From Thermomonas beijingensis (GTDB lineage Bacteria; Pseudomonadota; Gammaproteobacteria; Xanthomonadales; Xanthomonadaceae), in contig NZ_JAIQDJ010000002.1 of the NCBI RefSeq assembly GCF_020034655.1, positions 1 to 64,000 on the forward strand: a DNA stretch of 64,000 nucleotides, given 5' to 3'. Below are positions 14,197 through 63,585 of this stretch, one piece after another. The first letter of the stretch is position 1; each line of letters begins with the position of its first letter. Made by a program: the position numbers and the translations under genes. The notes beneath the pieces were generated by a model. The model was given only the letters and a program-made list of their open reading frames with translations. It did no database searches and had not been told where the DNA came from.

Positions 14197-14208
14197 ATTT
14201 CATGAAAT
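14197..14208. promoter_or_regulatory. Perfect 12-bp palindrome upstream of the esterase autotransporter
   Basis: ATTTCATGAAAT is fully self-complementary. It overlaps the end of a TATGAT hexamer at 14193-14198 and lies about 107 bases before the esterase ATG, so it could be an operator for a dimeric regulator. No regulator is identified. Confidence 0.3.
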
Positions 14209-14314
14209 GATGCGCGCCATTCGCGGGCGTATGTCACGACGAAGCTGGCCCCGCAACCAGAGCCAGAGCTGCGACCACCTCCCCATGACTTTCCATGACT
14301 TTTCGAGGATACCC

Positions 14315-16249
14315 ATGAAAACCCTGTTGCGTAGAACCCTGCTGTCGGCTGCCCTGGCTTTGGTTGCGCTGCCCGCAATGGCGCAGAGCACGCCTGATTC
14401 GCCGTTTACCAAGACCGTATTCTTTGGTGACAGTCTGACCGATGGCGGCTTCTTCCGTCCGTTGCTGCCTGCTGCCTCGCAGTCGGTGACTGGACAGTTC
14501 ACCACCAATCCCGGTTATGTCTGGTCGCAATACATGGCCGATTACTTCCGCAGCAATGCGGATGTGGCGTGGAAGGCAACCGGTGCCACCCCCGCCAAGG
14601 CCAATGGCAATAACTGGGCCGTGGGCGGCGCGCGGATCAAAATCGATTCAGTAGGTGGCCTGGGCTATACCCCGTCGTTGGTGAGCCAGTACAACGCGTA
14701 TTTGGCGGCCGGCAATACGGTCGATCCCAATGCTCTTTATGCCATCTGGGGCGGTGCCAATGACGTGTTCCAGGCGATCACCGATTACCAAACGGCCTAT
14801 GTCACTACTCTGATGGGGGGGGGTAACCCGACCCAGGCCGATGCGGCTGGCCAAGCGGCTGCTGGCGCCACCATCAGCCCGGCAATCGCCGCGCAAATCG
14901 GGTTGATCGGTGCACTGAAAACCGCCGGCGCGCAGTACATTCTCGTGCCCACTTTGCCGGATATGGGGCTGACTCCGTCGGCCGCAGCCGGGGGTGCACA
15001 GGGCATCGCATTGGCGCATGGTCTGTCGACAAATTACAACAACGCGTTGTTCGGCGGCTTGTCCAGCGCCGGGCTGCACGTGATTCCAGTAGATACCTAT
15101 CACTTCCTGCAGGAAGTCGTGGCCAACCCGGCCGCATTTGGCTTGACCAATGTGACGGGGGTAGCGTGCTTGACCCAGCCGCCGCCGGCAGGTGCTTCGT
15201 CGTTGTTCTGCAACCCGCTATCCACCGTACCCAATGGCGCCAACACCTACCTGTTTGCCGATGGCGTGCACCCGACCTCGGGTGCGCACAAGGCGCTGGC
15301 GGATCTGGCTGTCTCGATGATCGATGGGCCGCGCCAGATCGCCGTGTTGCCACATTCGGCAGCGATGGTGGGGCGTTCACGCGCCTCCATGGTGGAGACT
15401 ACGGTCACCAGCATGGCGATGTCGAAGGGCGAGGGCATGCAATGGTGGGCTGATATCCGTGGCGATCAACAGCGCTTCAATCAATCGGCCGGATTTGATG
15501 GCTTGGGTGGTACCGGTTCATTCGGGATCGGCTGGCACACCGGGAATGTGGTGTACGGCGCATTTGCAGGTTATGGCCGGCAAAAACTCGACTTCGGGTT
15601 TGATCGCGGTGATTTCCGCCAGACCGATGCCAGTATTGGCGGGTTTGCTGGCTGGGCTGGCGACAGCGGGCTGTGGGCCAATGGCCAATTGAGCTGGACC
15701 AAGCTGAGCTACAAGGTGAACCGCCAAGTCAATTTGGGCCAAGCGGTGCGCGTGCATAGCGGCTCGCCGGACGGCACCAACCTCAGCGCGGGTGTCAGCG
15801 CCGGCTGGACCTTCAAGCACAACAAATGGCAGAGTGGCCCGGTGTTGTCCTTGCTGTGGCAGAACATCAGCGTGGACGGTTATGCCGAAAACAGCACCCA
15901 ATCCAGCGCGCTGGCGTTTGCCAAGCAAGACGGTGATTCACTGATGGGTAGCGCAGGCTGGCAGGCCAGCTACAGCATCAACGAACACTTGCAACCGTAT
16001 GCACGCGTGACTTGGAATCATGAATTCAAGGATGCTCCGGCGCAGGTGTGGGCACAGTCGCAGTCGATGGCCAATACACTGCCCTATGCAGTGCCGGGTG
16101 TGCCCTTCGATGACAGCTACGGCACCCTTGGCATCGGTCTGCGCAGCAAGCTGCTGGGGATGGATGTCACCGCCGGCAGCAACCTGAGCATCAACCAAAA
16201 GGGCGGTCACGACACCAATTTCTTCGTCACCGTGGGCGGCTCGTTCTGA
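14315..16249 (+). CDS. GDSL esterase/lipase autotransporter (EstA-like)
   Basis: A 644-residue type V secreted, surface-anchored esterase. The signal peptide is MKTLLRRTLLSAALALVALP with cleavage after AMA. The passenger (about 25-390) has the GDSL block VFFGDSLTDGG with nucleophile Ser40, the Gly/Asn oxyanion region IWGGANDV, and the catalytic Asp/His in LFADGVHPTSGAHK. The C-terminal part (about 390-644) is a beta-barrel ending VTVGGSF with a terminal aromatic residue, as in autotransporter barrels. GAGGA is placed well before ATG 14315. A run of nine G lies in the passenger-coding part. Relatives hydrolyse short- and medium-chain esters and affect motility and biofilm in pseudomonads. Confidence 0.92.
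   Translation: MKTLLRRTLLSAALALVALPAMAQSTPDSPFTKTVFFGDSLTDGGFFRPLLPAASQSVTGQFTTNPGYVWSQYMADYFRSNADVAWKATGATPAKANGNNWAVGGARIKIDSVGGLGYTPSLVSQYNAYLAAGNTVDPNALYAIWGGANDVFQAITDYQTAYVTTLMGGGNPTQADAAGQAAAGATISPAIAAQIGLIGALKTAGAQYILVPTLPDMGLTPSAAAGGAQGIALAHGLSTNYNNALFGGLSSAGLHVIPVDTYHFLQEVVANPAAFGLTNVTGVACLTQPPPAGASSLFCNPLSTVPNGANTYLFADGVHPTSGAHKALADLAVSMIDGPRQIAVLPHSAAMVGRSRASMVETTVTSMAMSKGEGMQWWADIRGDQQRFNQSAGFDGLGGTGSFGIGWHTGNVVYGAFAGYGRQKLDFGFDRGDFRQTDASIGGFAGWAGDSGLWANGQLSWTKLSYKVNRQVNLGQAVRVHSGSPDGTNLSAGVSAGWTFKHNKWQSGPVLSLLWQNISVDGYAENSTQSSALAFAKQDGDSLMGSAGWQASYSINEHLQPYARVTWNHEFKDAPAQVWAQSQSMANTLPYAVPGVPFDDSYGTLGIGLRSKLLGMDVTAGSNLSINQKGGHDTNFFVTVGGSF
14815..14823 (+). repeat. In-frame poly-G tract (9 bases) in esterase gene
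   Basis: Nine G residues around codon 167, encoding the Gly run of LMGGGNP. Slippage by one base would shift the frame and remove the barrel, so the tract is a candidate for phase switching of a surface protein. Confidence 0.6.
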
Positions 16250-16725: not shown

Positions 16726-19413
<2,688 letters not shown>

Positions 19414-19471: not shown

Positions 19472-19515
19472 AACGGCATGCCAGCAAGTGCAGGTCAAGC
19501 AAGTGGCATGCCGTT
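19472..19515. terminator. Long-loop hairpin between aceE and the EAL protein gene
   Basis: A perfect 12-base stem AACGGCATGCCA/TGGCATGCCGTT separated by 20 bases lies in the 101-base convergent gap. T residues follow on both strands. The loop contains GCAAG twice. It may act as a bidirectional terminator, though the loop is long for one. Confidence 0.45.
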
Positions 19516-22500
19516 TACGGTGTGGAATTTTGGCCATCATGGTGCAGAAATGCATCACGTACCTGTGCGCGCAGGTTGTCGTCGTCCCATGGTTTTGTCA
19601 GGAAGCGGAACACTGCGCCACGGTTGACGGATTCGGTGATGACATTCAAGTCGGTGTATCCGGAGAGCACCATGCGGATGGTATCCGGATACAGGATCTT
19701 GACTTTGTCGAGGAGCTCGGTTCCCGACAAGCCGGGCATGCGCTGATCCGAAATGATCACCTGGACTCGATGCATGGCAAGCATCTCCAATGCCTGTTCT
19801 CCACTGCCAGCCACCAGGATGTGGTATCCGTCGCGACGTAATAGGCGTGTCAATGCCTTGCCGATGCTGAGCTCGTCATCCACGATAAGCAGGCTGCGAC
19901 CGTTGCTGGCAGCAGATTGTCGGCGATCCAGCCGCGGACGTTCCCGTAGCAATGTGGCGAACGTTTCTGAGTTCAAGGGGGCACTGAACAAATATCCTTG
20001 CATCTCGTCGCAGTGATTTTGGGCGAGGTAATTGAGTTGGGCAAAGGTCTCCACGCCTTCCGCCACTGAGGTCAAGCCCAGGCTCCTTGCGATTGCGATG
20101 ACTGCCAGCGCGATGGTGGCGTCTTCAACGCTGCGGGTGATGTCGGTGATAAAGCTGCGATCAATTTTGACGCTGTGAATCGGAATTCGCTTGAGATAGG
20201 ACAGCGACGAATAGCCGGTTCCGAAATCGTCCAGCGATAGCTTGATACCCAACTCGCGCAATTTTTCGAATGACTTTATTGCCCGGGTGACGTCCTGCAT
20301 GGCCGCACTTTCGGTTAATTCAAGCCCAAGCCACTCGGGTTCGAGTCTGTTATCGTCCAGCGCTTCGCGTACGACGCGTATCAAATTGTCGCGGCTGAGC
20401 TGTGCGCCGGACACATTGGCAGCAACTGGGACTATCCGCAAACCAGCTGCTCGCCAAGCACTTTGCTGCTTGCAGGCCATGTGGATAACGCGTGCACCAA
20501 GCGGTGAGATCAGCCCTGATCGCTCCGCCAGCGCGATGAAGTCGGCAGGCGGCAACAAGCCGTGCTCTGGATGCTGCCAGCGAACCAGGGCTTCGGCGCC
20601 GACGATTTCGCCGCTGATGATATCGACCCTCGGCTGATAATAGAGCAGGAATTCATCTCTCTCGATAGCATCGCGTAGCTGCGATTCGGGAGATTTGCTG
20701 CGTGTCAGAAATGTATCATCCACCCGGGAATAGCGAACGATCTGATCACCCCAAATTTTTGCTGCCTTGAGTGCGCGAACCGCGTGATCCAACTCGACCG
20801 GATCATCATATGATCCGTCAGTATCGGGGTAGTCCGCGACACCTGTATGCACCAGTACCGGAATTTGATGGCCGTCCAATTCGAATGGCTTGCCAAAGGC
20901 ATCGGATAAATGGTGGTCGAAACTAGCGGCATAGTCGGATTCCGCCGACAAATGAACGAGCGCGAAAGTATCGCCTCCAATTCTGCCGGCGATGAACGTT
21001 TCGCTGGACAGTGCTTGCAATCGTTCGCCAATGCAACGCAGCAGATGGTCGCCACCCTCCCGACCAAAACGTTCGTTGAATTGCGCGAAGTCATCAAGAT
21101 CAATTGCACAGACGCACAGGTGTTGACCGCGCTCCCGTGCAACTTCAATGAATCTTGCAATTTGTTCGCGCACACCTTGTGCGTTGAACAGCCCGGTCAA
21201 TGGGTCGTAATAAGTCAGATGCTGGAGTTGCTGCGAGGCGACGAGCTGATCAAGCGCAAACGACAGATCACTGGCCATCCATTCCAGCACATCCACCTCC
21301 TCGGCACCGAAGATATCCGGATCGGGTGACAACAACACCATCGCGTACAGCGTACGGCCCCCCAACCACAATGGGATTGCCGCTACCGAGCGAATGCGCG
21401 GTGCCGACCAGGGGCTATCAGTCGCCGTTGCAGTACGCAGATGGATCGGGTTGTTATCCAACACCGACTTGCCGGTACGCAATGCTTGCAGGATCAATTG
21501 ATTGCAGGCGGTGATGGAAAAGCGGGCATCGGCTTCGGTCTGATTGTTGCCGACATCCCGCTGCTGTATGCAAAAGACATGGGAATTATTGCTGGCAGGG
21601 TCGAGTTCGACGATGGCCGCCAGTGTGAAATCGCCTTGGGCGACCGCGAGGCGGCAGGCATCGGTCAGCAGGTGGCTGCGATCGCTGTGGCGCAACATCG
21701 CAGAGTGGATGCCGCCGATCATGGTGCGCAGTCGCTCTAGGCGTGCGACTTTTTGTTGCTGGGCCTTGCGGGCGGAAATGTCCTCGAGCAGAACCATGAT
21801 TTTGCCATCGACTTGGGTCGAATTGGCGCTGAAGGGAATGCTGTGGCCGTCGCGATGCAGCATGTCCCATTCCCCATGGTCTGGGTTTCCCGCAAGGATT
21901 TGGGTGATCACCGGCTCCACGCGGTGTCGATCTCTGGGGGCGACGGCGGTCGATACATACTTGCCGGTCAGGCCACCGGCGGGGTAGCCAAGTAGTTGAT
22001 TCAACGTTAGGTTGCTATCGAGGAAAACCCCACTGGCATCCACTATCGCGATGCCGAGTGACGACGATTCGAACAGTCTGCGGTAGAGGTTTTCGGTTTG
22101 CTGGCGTGCGCTTTCTGCTTGGATGCGGTTGGAAATATCGATTCCGATGCCTACCAGGCAATCGACATGGTCGAACTGTGCCCGCCTGGCCGACAGCAAG
22201 TACGGATGTGGTGCGCCATGCTTGTCGATCAGGCTGGCTTCGACATGGTCGGACCCGTCAGCAAAACTGACTTCAATCATGGCCAGGACTCTGGCACGGT
22301 CATCGGCTGAAAAGAATTCCAGTGAATTCATGTTGCGCAGTTCATCGTCCGTATAGCCGGTTGCCACGCACATGTTTTGATTCCAGCGCAGGCAGCGGAG
22401 TTGGCGGTCGAACAGACAGACGATGCCAGGTGAGCTCTCGATCAGAGACTCAGTCAACTTGCGTTCTCGTTCCAGGACTAGGTTTGCAAGGCGTGTCTCC

Positions 22501-23909
22501 TCGGCCTGACGGAAGCTGGCAAGACCAATGCCGATGGCGCGCGCAACATCTTCAAAAACAGCGATTTCGGTGGCGCCGAAGTAACCCGCATGGCGCGCGT
22601 AGATGGCCAGGCTGCCGTATGTGCAGCCATCCTTTTCAATCGGGATCGCAGTACCCGCACGCAGGCGGGCTTTGCGCATTTGCTCCAGCCAAGGTCTCGC
22701 GGTGGGCTCGTTCAACAGGTCATTGCAGGTCTGGGTTTTTCCACTACGAAAGGCGAGTCCAGAGGGCCCGTTTCCTTCCGGACGATCATCGGCATAAACA
22801 TGAATGCTATTTACATAGGCAACCTGCCGGCCGCTTGCTGCAACCGGGTTGAGGCGTTGGGTGGCGGGATCGATCAGCCCTATCCACGCAAGCGCTAGTG
22901 CGCCGTCTTGAGTCAGAATTCGACAGGCGTCATGCAATAGCTGCTCGCGGTTGGCCGCGCTCAGGACCAGCGCATTGATCTGACTCAGGGTGTTGAATAA
23001 ACGAGACAGGCGCTGAGACTCACGCTCGCGCCGGATCAGTGGGGTAATGTCGTGGATGAATTTACTTGCGCCAACCACGTTGCCGCTGTGGTCGGTGATC
23101 GGTGCCGCGCTGATCAGTACGTGCAGCGAGCGGCGGGTCCGAGTCAGGCGAATCGACTCATAGGGTGCAATGGATTCTCCCTTGGCAACTGTCGAAAGTG
23201 TTTGATTCTCCTCGAACTGCCGCGATTTCGGAACGAGGCGATACACCGAGTCCCCCAGGATTTCATTCCGGGAGTACCCGAAAATGATCTCGGCACCTTC
23301 GTTCCAATGCGTGATCGTGCCGTTCAGCGTCATTCCCACGATAGCCGCTTTGGATACTTCGATGGATGCGAATAGCTTGGTTGCAGGCACACTGCCCGCA
23401 TCGGACAGGACGGCCGGCTTACCGGTCGCTGATGGGGGGGGCGTGCAGTCGGTATTTGCGGCAATGCCGCGCGCCAGCACCGATAGCGAATCCATCACTT
23501 CTTTGCCAGGGGTGCCCTCAGCGCATAACAGGTTCAGGGCTCCGAGAATTTCGCCGGAAGGTGTGGCGATCGGTGCGCATATGAGGATTGCAGAAGGATA
23601 GTCGTCCGCTATGGACAGCTGGGCCAAAAAGTCGTGATCGTCAAAGCAATCGACGATATGCGCTTCGTCTTGGTCTGCAATGCCGGCAGCACCACGCTCG
23701 GCAAGCGCGAGCGCCTCAAATGGGTTCAGGCCGATCGCTGCGATGGGATGCACCCGGTCATCGCAATGCCAGGACATCACTGCAATGGGCGCGCGCGCCA
23801 ACTGGGCCGCCATCATCAGATATTCCGCCGCTGTCGTCGCACACTGCAGACGCACGGGGCTGGGGCCGAAAGCCGCGGAGAGTTCGGTGGATGTCAACGA
23901 CTTTCGCAT
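19515..23909 (-). CDS. Multidomain c-di-GMP phosphodiesterase: GAF-PAS-GAF-PAS-PAS-GAF-GGDEF(degenerate)-EAL-REC
   Basis: A soluble protein of 1464 residues. Approximate domains: GAF 25-165, PAS 185-300, GAF 310-475, PAS 485-605, PAS 610-725, GAF 735-890, GGDEF 895-1065, EAL 1085-1325, receiver 1337-1455. The GGDEF signature reads GRIGGDTF, so the catalytic glutamate is replaced and cyclase activity is unlikely. The EAL domain keeps AEALVRW, NVSGAQL, ELTES, DDFGTGYSS, VKIDRSFI, AEGVET and QGYLFSAP, so it should hydrolyse c-di-GMP. The receiver has SLLIVDDE, SDQRMPGLSG and KPW, similar to RpfG-type receivers, and sits unusually at the C terminus. No membrane span. ATG 23909 has GAGGT upstream; a TTG seven codons earlier is less likely. 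Divergent from the kinase/regulator pair. Confidence 0.9.
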   Translation of the reverse strand: MRKSLTSTELSAAFGPSPVRLQCATTAAEYLMMAAQLARAPIAVMSWHCDDRVHPIAAIGLNPFEALALAERGAAGIADQDEAHIVDCFDDHDFLAQLSIADDYPSAILICAPIATPSGEILGALNLLCAEGTPGKEVMDSLSVLARGIAANTDCTPPPSATGKPAVLSDAGSVPATKLFASIEVSKAAIVGMTLNGTITHWNEGAEIIFGYSRNEILGDSVYRLVPKSRQFEENQTLSTVAKGESIAPYESIRLTRTRRSLHVLISAAPITDHSGNVVGASKFIHDITPLIRRERESQRLSRLFNTLSQINALVLSAANREQLLHDACRILTQDGALALAWIGLIDPATQRLNPVAASGRQVAYVNSIHVYADDRPEGNGPSGLAFRSGKTQTCNDLLNEPTARPWLEQMRKARLRAGTAIPIEKDGCTYGSLAIYARHAGYFGATEIAVFEDVARAIGIGLASFRQAEETRLANLVLERERKLTESLIESSPGIVCLFDRQLRCLRWNQNMCVATGYTDDELRNMNSLEFFSADDRARVLAMIEVSFADGSDHVEASLIDKHGAPHPYLLSARRAQFDHVDCLVGIGIDISNRIQAESARQQTENLYRRLFESSSLGIAIVDASGVFLDSNLTLNQLLGYPAGGLTGKYVSTAVAPRDRHRVEPVITQILAGNPDHGEWDMLHRDGHSIPFSANSTQVDGKIMVLLEDISARKAQQQKVARLERLRTMIGGIHSAMLRHSDRSHLLTDACRLAVAQGDFTLAAIVELDPASNNSHVFCIQQRDVGNNQTEADARFSITACNQLILQALRTGKSVLDNNPIHLRTATATDSPWSAPRIRSVAAIPLWLGGRTLYAMVLLSPDPDIFGAEEVDVLEWMASDLSFALDQLVASQQLQHLTYYDPLTGLFNAQGVREQIARFIEVARERGQHLCVCAIDLDDFAQFNERFGREGGDHLLRCIGERLQALSSETFIAGRIGGDTFALVHLSAESDYAASFDHHLSDAFGKPFELDGHQIPVLVHTGVADYPDTDGSYDDPVELDHAVRALKAAKIWGDQIVRYSRVDDTFLTRSKSPESQLRDAIERDEFLLYYQPRVDIISGEIVGAEALVRWQHPEHGLLPPADFIALAERSGLISPLGARVIHMACKQQSAWRAAGLRIVPVAANVSGAQLSRDNLIRVVREALDDNRLEPEWLGLELTESAAMQDVTRAIKSFEKLRELGIKLSLDDFGTGYSSLSYLKRIPIHSVKIDRSFITDITRSVEDATIALAVIAIARSLGLTSVAEGVETFAQLNYLAQNHCDEMQGYLFSAPLNSETFATLLRERPRLDRRQSAASNGRSLLIVDDELSIGKALTRLLRRDGYHILVAGSGEQALEMLAMHRVQVIISDQRMPGLSGTELLDKVKILYPDTIRMVLSGYTDLNVITESVNRGAVFRFLTKPWDDDNLRAQVRDAFLHHDGQNSTP

Positions 23910-24117
23910 CGTGTGACCTCGATTGTTCAAACCATATTTTTGCGCCGCACAAAACTGACCAAGCTGCTCCTGCCAATCAACAGAATAGACGAACCGGCAT
24001 CAATCTGCATGGGGGGTTCCGGTTCCCGCGGCAGGCGAGTATTTTTTGTGATCGAGTGCGGATGAATTGCAGCAGATGTGCGTTAATCTGCATGCGCTTG
24101 CACAGGAGGCGGATGCG

Positions 24118-25401
24118 ATGAAGCTGCATCAGCAGATAGGTGTTGATATGCCCGATCCGGTGGCTGTCACCGCGCCCGGGATGGATAGCGCCGCCGTTTC
24201 CGAGTACCTCACGCAATATATGAATGCTGCGCAGGATGCGTTGCTGTTGCTTGATGATGCTGGGTGTATTCAGTATTGCAATTTGCAGGCACGCCTGTTG
24301 GCACACTCCCTTAATCCCGATAAAAATCAGGATGAGTTGCTGCATCTCCGTGATTGGCAACCGGGCCTGCTGAGTGACTCGGCGATGCACACGTGCCGGG
24401 AGTCAGGCAGTTGGATTGGCGCGGTACGGATCGCCGGGGCGGTACTGCGGAATCGTATTGCACAGGTTCATCTGGTCGCGCTTGGGCCACAGCGAACCCA
24501 GCCATTTGCAATGTGTATTCGCGATATCACCCTGGAATATGCGCGGGAGCAGGAGCTGCATGAGCGCAATGCAGAACTGGAGATCGCCTATACCAAGCTC
24601 AAAAGCGCTCAGGAGATGGCCTTCCACACCGAGAAGTTAGCGTCAATCGGGCAGCTGGCGGCAGGGGTGGCGCATGAGATCAACAATCCGATCGCATATG
24701 TGAAATCCAACCTCAACATGCTTCGACTGCCGTTAGCTCAGTTGCTTAGGCAGGCGCGGATACCCGAGTGCGAGGATGATTTGCGACAAGCAGTCAGCGA
24801 TGAGCTGAATGAAGATGCGATGAATGCGTGTGACGAGGCGCTGGCTATTGATGTTCGTGACCTGATCACGGAGTCCCTTGAAGGAGTGGATCGCGTTTGC
24901 AGAATAGTCAGTGACCTGAAGGATTTTTCGCATCAGGATCAGGCTGAGAACTGGACGATGGCGGATGTCCACGCCGGTCTTGATTCGACCCTGAACATCG
25001 TATGGAATGAAATCAAGTACAAGGCTCATGTGGTGAAGTCGTATGGCGACCTGCCTTTGATCGAGTGCATTCCGTCGCAATTGAATCAGGTGTTCATGAA
25101 CCTGCTGGTGAATGCTTCGCAAGCGATCGATAACAACGGCATCATCACCATCACTAGCGAATGCAGTGGTGACCAAGTCAGAATTTCGATCGGGGACAAT
25201 GGCAAGGGTATTCCTGCCGAGGCCTTGCCACGGATCTTCGATCCGTTCTTTACAACCAAGGACGTTGGGCATGGAACAGGCCTCGGGCTGGCCATATCTT
25301 ACGGCGTCATCGCAAAGCATCACGGCGTCATCGAAGTAACTAGCGTGCCCGGGGAAGGTACTCTGTTCATGTTGAAGTTGCCGATTGCTCAACCGCGCTG
25401 A
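24118..25401 (+). CDS. Soluble PAS-domain sensor histidine kinase
   Basis: A 427-residue cytoplasmic kinase. A PAS-like sensor (about 35-150) is followed by a coiled coil ([20 protein letters not shown]) and the dimerisation/phosphoacceptor motif [18 protein letters not shown] with His186. The ATPase part has the N box [16 protein letters not shown]1 [10 protein letters not shown] box FDPFFTTK and G2 GTGLGLAI. No transmembrane helix, so the signal is intracellular. AGGAGG sits eight bases before ATG 24118, fixing the start despite an open frame upstream. The response regulator begins 19 bases after its stop. The gene diverges from the EAL-REC protein gene across about 208 bases. Confidence 0.93.
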
Positions 25402-25420
25402 TCGCGACAGGGAGAAACGA

Positions 25421-25942
25421 ATGTATCGAGTACTGCTGCTGGATGACGAAGCCAATATTCTTCGCGCCTTGCGTCGCAACCTCGCATCGATTCCTTCGTC
25501 ACGCCTGGGGGGGGAAGCGCTGATAATTGAAGTATTCACTGACCCCAACGCCGCGCTTGATCGCTGCGAGGATATGCAGTTCGATTTGTTGGTATCCGAT
25601 TACCGGATGCCGGAAATGAGCGGTGTCGAGTTCCTGGCACGCTCCATTGCCAGTCATCCCAATACACCACGGGTCATCGTGTCGGGATTCGCTGATCGTG
25701 ATGCCATTATCGCCGCGATCAACGAGGCACAATTGACGCGCTTTATCGAGAAACCCTGGGTTGATGCAGAGCTCCAGCGGATCGTGGTGGCTATCCTCAC
25801 CTCTCAGGGGGGGCGCATTGCCGGAAAATTTGCTGCAGAAGCCAGTGCGCAACGGGAACGGGATCGACTGGAGCAGGAAAGCCCTGGAATCACCGAGGTG
25901 GACTGGAATCCGGATGGATCCATATCGATCGATCCGGATTGA
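25421..25942 (+). CDS. Single-domain response regulator
   Basis: A 173-residue protein with one receiver domain (about 1-130) and a charged tail, with no DNA-binding or enzymatic output. The acidic pocket is LLLDDEANIL, the phosphoacceptor Asp60 lies in VSDYRMPEMSG, and the conserved lysine is in IEKPW. SYR-type sequence and KPW closely resemble the receiver at the end of the neighbouring EAL protein. GGGAGA precedes ATG 25421. It is cotranscribed with the kinase and probably acts by protein contact or as a phosphate carrier or sink (inference). Runs of eight and seven G occur in the coding sequence. Confidence 0.9.
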   Translation: MYRVLLLDDEANILRALRRNLASIPSSRLGGEALIIEVFTDPNAALDRCEDMQFDLLVSDYRMPEMSGVEFLARSIASHPNTPRVIVSGFADRDAIIAAINEAQLTRFIEKPWVDAELQRIVVAILTSQGGRIAGKFAAEASAQRERDRLEQESPGITEVDWNPDGSISIDPD

Positions 25943-25956
25943 ATATCAAGTTCGGA

Positions 25957-27051
25957 CTAGCCGCGCAACGCCTGTAGCACCGCAGCTTCATTCACATCCT
26001 TCACCACACTGGCCGTGCCCGGGCCGTTCCAGAGGATGAAGCGCAGGCCGCTGGCTTGTGCTTTCTTGTCCAGCCGCATGCGTGCAAGCAGGGCATCGGG
26101 TGCCAACCCAGTAGGCAGCTCTACCGGCAGGCCGAAGCGTTGCAGCAGGCTGCGTAGGGTGCTGGTATCGGCATCGCTGGCCATCCCCAGCAAGCCGGAA
26201 AGCTTGGCTGCCAACAGCATGCCTACCGCCACCGCTTCGCCGTGGTTGAAGCCGTGGGCATAGCCTTGCTCGGCCTCGATCGCATGGCCAAAGGTATGGC
26301 CGAAATTGAGCAGCGCACGCTCGCCGTGTTCGAACGGGTCGCGCTCGGTGATCGCTGCCTTGTGCGTGCAGCTACGTGCAATCGCGGCCGACAGGGCGGC
26401 ATCGTCGGCGGCCAGCAAGGCATCGCAGTGCGCCTCCAGCCAGCGTAGGAATTCGGCATCCACAATCGCGCCGTATTTGATGACTTCGGCCAAGCCGGCG
26501 CGCAGCTCGCGGGGGGGCAGGCTGCGCAGGGTGGCGGTGTCGGCAATCACCGCGCGCGGCGGATGGAACGCACCCACCAAATTCTTGCCCTGCGGGATGT
26601 CCACCGCGGTCTTGCCACCGACCGAAGAATCCACCATGGCCAGCAAGGTGGTGGGCAGTTGTACCACGTCAATGCCGCGCATCCAGCACGCGGCGGCAAA
26701 CCCGGCCATATCACCCATCACCCCGCCACCCAGCGCATAGATGCAGGCGTCGCGGGTGGCGCCCAGGGTGGCCAATGCATCGATCACGCCACCGAAATTG
26801 GCCAGCGTTTTTTCCGCTTCACCGGCATCGATGACATGACGCGCGATACGCAAGTCGGGTTGTGCGGCACGCAGCGCGGCCTCCACGCGCTTGGCATACA
26901 GCGGTGCCACATTGGCATCACTGACGATCAGCGCGTGGCGGCCACGCAGGGTGGCGGTGAGCAGCACGCCGTCATCCAGCAGGCCTGCGCCAATGTGGAT
27001 GCGATACGGCGCGTTGCCACCGACAGCGACGATTTGCGGTGCAGTGCTCAT
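25957..27051 (-). CDS. aroB: 3-dehydroquinate synthase
   Basis: A 364-residue NAD- and metal-dependent enzyme converting DAHP to 3-dehydroquinate, the second step of the shikimate pathway. Key segments are [51 protein letters not shown] (nucleotide and substrate binding), and [11 protein letters not shown] with metal-ligand histidines. Length is normal. Its ATG overlaps the stop of aroK by four bases (ATGA), so the pair is translationally coupled, the common aroK-aroB order. Confidence 0.97.
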
Positions 27052-62797: not shown

Positions 62798-63199
62798 ATG
62801 GCGCAGCAAGACAGTGCAGATAGCAACCTGAAGGGATTGCGGGTGATGGTCATTGACGACTCCAGAACAATCCGACGCACGGCGGAAACCCTGCTTGCGC
62901 GCGAGGGTTGCGATGTCGTTTCGGCAACCGATGGGTTCGAGGCGTTGTCGAAGATCGCAGATCACAATCCGCAGATCATTTTCGTCGATATCATGATGCC
63001 GCGACTGGACGGATATCAGACCTGTGCCCTGATCAAGAACAACCAAACGTTTAAAAACGTGCCGGTGATCATGCTTTCGTCTAAGGACGGTTTATTCGAC
63101 AAGGCAAGAGGCCGTATTGTCGGCTCCGAGCAATACCTGACCAAGCCGTTCACGCGAGATGAGCTGCTTGGTGCAATTCGGACGTACGTTAACGCCTGA
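62798..63199 (+). CDS. pilG: Type IV pilus response regulator PilG
   Basis: A 133-residue CheY-like single receiver of the Pil-Chp chemosensory system controlling pilus extension and twitching. LKGLRVMVIDDSRTIRRTAE holds the acidic pair, IIFVDIMMPRLDGYQTC the phosphoacceptor aspartate, and TKPFTRDELL the conserved lysine. AAGGGG lies about seven bases before ATG 62798. Followed by pilH. Confidence 0.95.
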   Translation: MAQQDSADSNLKGLRVMVIDDSRTIRRTAETLLAREGCDVVSATDGFEALSKIADHNPQIIFVDIMMPRLDGYQTCALIKNNQTFKNVPVIMLSSKDGLFDKARGRIVGSEQYLTKPFTRDELLGAIRTYVNA

Positions 63200-63219
63200 C
63201 CGGGGGGGACAGGATCAGC

Positions 63220-63585
63220 ATGGCACGCATACTGCTTATCGAAGATTCACCGACTGAGACTGCAGTCATGGTGCAGTTGCTGGAACGCAACGGTCACCAG
63301 GTCACGACGTCGGGTAGCGCGGAAGACGGCATTACTGCCTGCAAGCGCGACAAGCCCGATCTGGTGCTGATGGATGTGATTCTGCCCGGAATGAATGGCT
63401 TTCAGGCCACCCGTGCACTGTCGCGGGATAGCGAAACCAGCCATATCCCGATCGTGATCGTCAGCACCAAGGGGCTGGAAACCGATCGCGTATGGGGCAT
63501 GCGCCAAGGGGCCAAGGATTACATCACGAAGCCGCCGCGCGAAAGTGAGTTGGTTGCGCGCATCAACGCATTGATTGGGCACTGA
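63220..63585 (+). CDS. pilH: Type IV pilus response regulator PilH
   Basis: A 121-residue CheY-like receiver that pairs with PilG; in Pseudomonas it favours retraction or acts as a phosphate sink. MARILLIEDSPTETAVMVQLL, LVLMDVILPGMNGFQATRAL and DYITKPPRESELV show the receiver residues. It is 20 bases after pilG. Confidence 0.95.
   Translation: MARILLIEDSPTETAVMVQLLERNGHQVTTSGSAEDGITACKRDKPDLVLMDVILPGMNGFQATRALSRDSETSHIPIVIVSTKGLETDRVWGMRQGAKDYITKPPRESELVARINALIGH

Follow-up and report, generated by a model that had tools for sequence, protein, structure and literature searches.

A likely RavA/RavR-type c-di-GMP two-component system in a rarer three-gene form in Thermomonas beijingensis

Background

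In Xanthomonas, RavR and PdeR are described as proteins uniting GGDEF, EAL and receiver domains, each encoded next to a histidine kinase, RavA and PdeK respectively (PMC6707612; PMC6637768). In these reports, RavR is an active phosphodiesterase phosphorylated by both RavA and RavS (PMC6707612), and PdeK and PdeR act as a pair (PMC6637768). The two accounts are at odds on the consequence of phosphorylation: the phosphodiesterase activity of RavR is described as unaffected by the action of RavA (PMC6707612), whereas that of PdeR, as told in PMC6637768, is triggered by PdeK. In Stenotrophomonas maltophilia, RavR is reported to compete with another protein, FsnR, for RavS (PMC9600515). As far as these sources extend, their accounts of Rav signalling mention no receiver protein standing alone at the locus.

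We analysed three genes of Thermomonas beijingensis located in a 64,000-nucleotide stretch of contig NZ_JAIQDJ010000002.1 (positions 1 to 64,000, hereafter the window), which encode a soluble kinase, a lone receiver and a giant protein ending in GGDEF, EAL and receiver domains. The combination of a kinase and an EAL-receiver protein is already a recognised arrangement; RavA/RavR of X. campestris and PdeK/PdeR of X. oryzae are its known counterpart. On the basis of the sequences and of the comparative analyses presented here, we consider it likely that the locus encodes a c-di-GMP two-component system of the RavA/RavR (PdeK/PdeR) type, present in a rarer three-gene form and working through the whole circuit outlined below.

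Results and discussion

Organization of the locus and genomic context

The three genes are present as open frames between aceE (ending at 19413) and aroB (25957-27051, minus strand), both named from their translations, as had been proposed. The giant protein, with a RavR/PdeR-like layout, has 1464 aa and is encoded on the minus strand (19515..23909, ATG at 23909), the ORF list showing its frame to be also open from a TTG (19515-23930, minus). On the plus strand are found a RavA/PdeK-like histidine kinase of 427 aa (24118..25401, ATG at 24118) and the lone receiver protein of 173 aa (25421..25942, ATG at 25421), whose start lies 19 nt after the kinase stop. The giant and the kinase diverge from an intergenic region of 208 nt (23910..24117) that presumably contains promoters for both sides; a sigma-70 consensus scan of this region returned no site, and a promoter and terminator scan gave no excess over shuffled sequences (3 versus 3.8; 6 versus 5.7). 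The earlier statement that none of the three proteins has a membrane span is upheld, with a maximal 19-residue hydropathy of 1.06 for the kinase, 1.11 for the lone receiver and 1.81 for the giant, the latter peak falling within its EAL domain.

The GC3 of the three genes (0.59-0.64) is below that of five flanking genes (0.72-0.79), and three 2-kb segments within 20001-26000 have the lowest GC among the 32 of the window. In G018, whose aceE is 95% identical, aroB, aroK and pdxH come directly after aceE and the island is missing. The island likewise follows aceE in G017 and G020, in the same arrangement and with 53-75% protein identity; no match to aroB was found downstream of it within about 11-12 kb in these two genomes, and in G011 aceE sits on a separate contig from the island. 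The GC3 contrast, the island-free G018 and the aceE context in G017 and G020 together suggest that the island was inserted after aceE, in one or more events. A clean insertion scar at aceE/aroB was sought and not found, the spacers of G018 and of the window aligning weakly past the gene ends, and no flanking repeats of note were detected at the island. Elsewhere in the window, positions 14207-16249 encode a 680-aa protein that, when its translation is read by eye, looks like a GDSL esterase autotransporter.

Domain composition of the three proteins

All the Pfam matches of the giant exceed their cut-offs and follow the order PAS-GAF-PAS-PAS-GAF, GGDEF, EAL and Response_reg, residues 1-185 having no Pfam match. 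The PAS-GAF-PAS-PAS-GAF sensor array, delimited by Pfam on in-frame segments, covers residues about 175-900 (21210..23387, minus). It is followed by the GGDEF domain (20757..21212, minus; PF00990), which reads GGDTF at residue 978, the EAL domain (19977..20681, minus; PF00563, E 6.3e-73) with the motifs EAL, DDFGTG, KIDR, AEGVET and MQGY, and the C-terminal receiver (19560..19889, minus; PF00072) with Asp1388 as likely phospho-acceptor and a KPW motif. We take GGDTF to be a degenerate motif and the EAL motifs to be fit for hydrolysis; the GGDEF domain is probably inactive with a regulatory role only, and the EAL domain, with its motifs intact, is probably a c-di-GMP phosphodiesterase. A receiver placed after the EAL domain had been regarded as an unusual order, a view that no longer holds: it is the RavR/PdeR layout, and the same order occurs in 60 of 62 fused open frames, a set gathered with the giant's receiver as bait and of which 20 come from one genus. 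A scan of genome contigs with the giant recovered four loci. One is identical to the window's protein along residues 1-1130; the other three are GGDEF-EAL or GGDEF-region matches, two of which serve as rows of the GGDEF-EAL tree described below. Residues 1-1130 are encoded, with 100% identity, on a public MAG contig (L001, Proteobacteria bacterium isolate SZAS CTRL-64).

The kinase displays HisKA and HATPase_c domains over the Pfam cut-off. Its description as a PAS kinase stands in part, the PAS domain remaining under the cut-off in the window's protein (13.9 of 21.8 bits) and passing it in the G371 orthologue (23.7). The likely site of autophosphorylation, His186, lies in an HEINNP motif. PMC12570481 attributes phosphatase activity as well to kinases bearing H-E/D-x-x-T/N, and the HEINN motif suggests that this kinase likewise doubles as a phosphatase. 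Its score against the T2SS_HK subfamily (NF038348), 326.8 of 450 bits, is under the curated cut-off, and a structure model made without alignment was unusable (mean pLDDT 37.7).

The lone receiver possesses the usual receiver residues, with Asp60 as likely acceptor, followed by a linker and a tail. It had been described as a single-domain regulator, a term that needs correction, since comparison of 26 sequences (excluding the truncated duplicate of the G280 receiver) reveals a conserved C-terminal tail at residues 149-168, PGIT...DGSI (25865..25924, plus). The commonest residue makes up, on average, a share of 0.65 per tail column, against 0.61 per receiver column and 0.52 per linker column; the tail pattern, which was written after viewing the alignment, is fitted by 21 of the 26 and its G-[ASG]-[IV] part by 25. 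A structure model of the lone receiver without alignment is weak overall (pLDDT 54.4), only block 161-170, in the tail, reaching a pLDDT of 85 as part of a predicted strand pair. Beyond the receiver domain, no family of Pfam or NCBIfam matched this protein over its cut-off.

The resemblance between the two receivers of the locus is borne out, the giant's receiver being the nearest to the lone receiver (35.8% identity) among 38 other receivers of the genome; reciprocally, the nearest to the giant's receiver is L106, marginally, and the lone receiver comes second. The window also holds two small receiver proteins in tandem at 62843-63567, with another receiver about 8.5 kb further on, in a 1940-aa frame beyond the window; we presume that this may be a chemotaxis-type cluster.

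Distribution among genomes

The sample consisted of 398 genomes of the order (taken as Xanthomonadales, class Gammaproteobacteria), the best few candidates per genome being scored. The kinase was retrieved in 98 of them (E<=1e-70), a receiver of the giant's kind in 107 (E<=1e-25) and the lone receiver in 17 (E<=1e-25). The kinase adjoins a receiver of the giant's kind, carried by a frame of at least 573 aa, in 87 of the 98 kinase genomes, the presence of GGDEF-EAL in the neighbour frames being verified in the fetched loci only; 86 of these 87 pairs lie within 2 kb and are convergent, and the remaining one, in the window, is adjacent but divergent. Among the 11 kinase genomes devoid of an adjacent EAL-receiver gene, four have a receiver 9.6-13.8 kb away, four lack one on the contig of the kinase, and three (G291, G347, G380) have a same-strand frame of 471-487 aa with 45-47% receiver identity, which is probably another protein. 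Rare co-occurrence in related genomes had been put forward as an argument against a functional unit. With 87 pairs among 98 kinase genomes, this argument does not hold for the kinase and EAL-receiver gene; it holds in part for the full trio, since the threshold applied revealed no lone receiver in most pair-bearing genomes.

Wherever the lone receiver is found, the kinase is beside it (17/17), and an EAL-receiver gene lies beside this pair in 14 genomes, being otherwise 8.8 kb away (G048), 15 kb away (G280) or on another contig (G086). Among the 25 genomes of the window's genus, the trio is present in four: G000, which is that of the window, G017, G020 and G011, where it extends over two contigs. 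Nine others have the kinase and the EAL-receiver gene without lone receiver (on different contigs in G014), G003 has one weaker and different match, and 11 show no receiver match at 1e-11, three of them being less than 90% complete.

Outside the order, a protein resembling the lone receiver was present in five (G445, G599, G660, G706, G765) of 15 fetched genomes, picked among the best matches (64 of 369 genomes of other orders). In the scanned loci of these orders, receivers are carried by HD-GYP and PAS proteins in G599, by a T2SS-type ATPase in G679, by hybrid kinases in G530 and G541 and by a GGDEF-EAL protein in G660. A receiver of the giant's kind stands at the head of a REC-PAS protein in G599 and of REC-GGDEF-EAL proteins in G541 and G660. 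In the G679 locus (L268:8881-11136), the receiver shares its protein with MshEN and a T2SS/T4P-type ATPase domain (PF00437), and kinases broadly of this type lie next to it. Frames of 748 and 751 aa with a similar receiver were seen at L272 and L277.

Relationship with the Rav proteins

The published landmarks Asp496, GSDEM and EAL of RavR and His164 of RavA were compared with four genomes, of which G295 and G360 fit all, provided that one start among several candidates is taken for His164; from the listed starts, Asp496 is not matched in G346 and G374. Genus g35, to which G295 and G360 belong, would then be the genus of the published Rav proteins. In genus g7, Asp is at position 496 from an ATG in 16 of 20 genomes and at 495 in one, three having longer frames, and GSDEL and ESL are read in all 20. 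The three long frames (G061, G076 and G077; L130, L145 and L146) are RavR-type, with 1316-1317 codons and an ATG giving 1289 aa, and correspond either to a longer protein or to a chance open frame.

Compared with the RavA/RavR match of G295, the receiver of the giant is identical at 69 of 114 positions (61%) and the kinase core at 142 of 262 (54%), versus 144 of 406 (35%) for GGDEF-EAL and 27 of 99 for the kinase N-terminus. Judged from these identities, conservation is at its peak where kinase and receiver would meet. A well-kept receiver set against a poorly kept GGDEF-EAL part fits with receivers moving between c-di-GMP enzymes while the contact with the kinase is kept.

In the receiver tree (101 rows on few columns, with an unsettled bootstrap and without the truncated G280 duplicate), the lone receivers form one group (100/97), in which that of the window stands with G011, G017 and G020, followed by G362, G371 and G322, then by G280. 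For the giant's receiver, the group comprises G011, G017, G020, G371 and G322 (97/94) and lies outside the group of 37 holding the RavR type. The kinase tree, built without kinase pieces of less than 200 aa and without the second G280 locus, brings together the same eight genomes as the lone receiver group, and this window group of eight joins 21 kinases of family f1, including G295 and G360, in a group of 29 (100/94). From these two trees 17 of the 19 genomes G060-G078 had been dropped, and 18 of the 19 from the GGDEF-EAL tree and AU test. In the GGDEF-EAL tree (67 rows), 34 RavR-type cores form one group (100/100) with the window's core outside; the latter belongs to a group of six (window, G011, G017, G020, G371, G322) on the paralogue side, whose position among the paralogues is not settled by the tree. 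The AU test does not reject the RavR-type and window-type cores as one clade (p 0.149). The whole giant may or may not be a simple RavR orthologue, its core falling outside the 34-row group while this p-AU leaves a common clade tenable. G362 and G280 have a kinase and a lone receiver near those of the window; because their EAL-receiver proteins fall outside the window group, the partners appear exchangeable.

Proposed circuit and alternative readings

In the circuit that we favour, the kinase would autophosphorylate on His186 and transfer the phosphoryl group to Asp1388 of the giant's receiver and Asp60 of the lone receiver. The giant would sense intracellular cues via its PAS/GAF array and, judging from its residues, hydrolyse c-di-GMP through its EAL domain, the degenerate GGDEF domain being regulatory. 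The lone receiver would compete with the giant for phosphoryl groups, and its tail may act back on the kinase or pass the signal to a further target. We infer the phosphotransfer from the Rav precedent, synteny and kinship.

The kinase and the lone receiver might instead be the true pair, forming one operon, with the giant a sensor phosphodiesterase whose receiver gets its phosphoryl groups chiefly from a different kinase, on the model of RavS and RavR; the locus would then be a mere neighbourhood of genes and not a single circuit. Such an organization would agree with the lone receiver having the kinase beside it in 17/17 genomes (19 nt apart in the window), with the giant lying on the opposite strand, with the EAL-receiver partner varying in G362 and G280, and with RavR accepting phosphoryl groups from a second kinase, RavS (PMC6707612). 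We nevertheless consider it unlikely, as most kinase genomes keep an EAL-receiver neighbour though no lone receiver was found there, and as the giant's receiver is far better conserved than its GGDEF-EAL part. That the locus is a decaying or silent foreign island without a working circuit, as the lower GC3, the lowest-GC 2-kb segments and the island-free aceE-aroB of G018 might evoke, is very unlikely in view of three open frames with the expected motifs and of an arrangement kept after aceE in G017 and G020 at 53-75% identity. A nitric-oxide relay of the NosP/NosK/NosR kind appears more improbable still. NCBIfam NosR is the best match of the lone receiver (113.6 of 400 bits; 150.9 for the giant's receiver) and a related kinase in G599 adjoins a NosR match over the cut-off (569.9), but both scores of the window are far under it, no HD-GYP domain is present, and the FIST family (PF08495), found in 4 of 23 genomes searched, was not found in G000, G011, G017 and G020. 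Nitric oxide sensing via FIST/NosP thus has no support in the window's genome. In G280, the EAL-receiver match has a FIST-domain gene (L302, G280:C1:2821595-2822164) about 8.5 kb away, while the kinase/lone-receiver pair is about 23 kb from this gene.

Another alternative concerns history and is compatible with the favoured mechanism: the giant may not descend from RavR, the same kind of receiver having been fused independently to another GGDEF-EAL protein. The RavR-type group of 34 rows (100/100) that leaves the window out, the window's group of six on the paralogue side and the same receiver kind heading REC-PAS (G599) and REC-GGDEF-EAL (G541, G660) proteins make this quite possible, although we lean somewhat against it, the AU test failing to reject the joint clade. 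More tentatively, the lone receivers would constitute an unnamed family (receiver, variable linker, PGIT...GSI tail) tied to one kinase lineage in Xanthomonadales and other orders of the class; they would act as a dedicated third component metering phosphate to the phosphodiesterase and signalling via the tail; and the giant would have arisen when the same portable receiver was joined a second time, independently, to a GGDEF-EAL enzyme. We regard this reading as possible but less likely than not.

Comparison with known systems

The locus resembles RavA/RavR and PdeK/PdeR by its neighbouring soluble kinase, its GGDEF-EAL protein with a C-terminal receiver and its degenerate GGDEF. It differs from the RavR matches of G295 and G360 in several respects: counted from their first ATG, these are 573 aa long and too short to accommodate a sensor array, whereas the giant contains a large one of PAS/GAF type; they are convergent with their kinase, whereas the genes of the window are divergent; and their EAL domain reads DN and ANG where that of the window reads DD and AEG. 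A RavR-type EAL with DN and ANG in place of the usual DD and AEG was observed at L210, L211 and L059, although RavR is reported to be an active phosphodiesterase (PMC6707612). No lone receiver was found in G295 and G360, whereas the window has a tailed one, and none of the listed titles and abstract beginnings mentions a lone receiver next to ravA/ravR, which is weak evidence of its absence.

The RavS/RavR/FsnR case offers a likeness in that two receivers compete for phosphoryl transfer from a single kinase (PMC9600515), with the difference that FsnR is a DNA-binding regulator (PMC9600515). In the three-gene form, removal of the lone receiver should show directly whether competition for phosphate sets the phosphodiesterase output. 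With NosP/NosK/NosR, described in PMC12570481 as a soluble HEINN kinase with c-di-GMP-linked output, the locus also shares receivers of related kind, but the FIST family was not found and the HD-GYP output is absent. Single-domain response regulators described in Xanthomonas, VemR and McvR among them, are small receivers without known output domain, and the lone receiver of the window, set beside VemR and McvR by description, has in addition a conserved tail and a position 19 nt after the kinase; this tail offers a concrete starting point for learning how a receiver protein acts when it lacks any known output domain. The pair of a kinase and an EAL-receiver protein is already known from the Rav/Pde systems, and what sets the three-gene form apart is the tailed lone receiver as a third gene.
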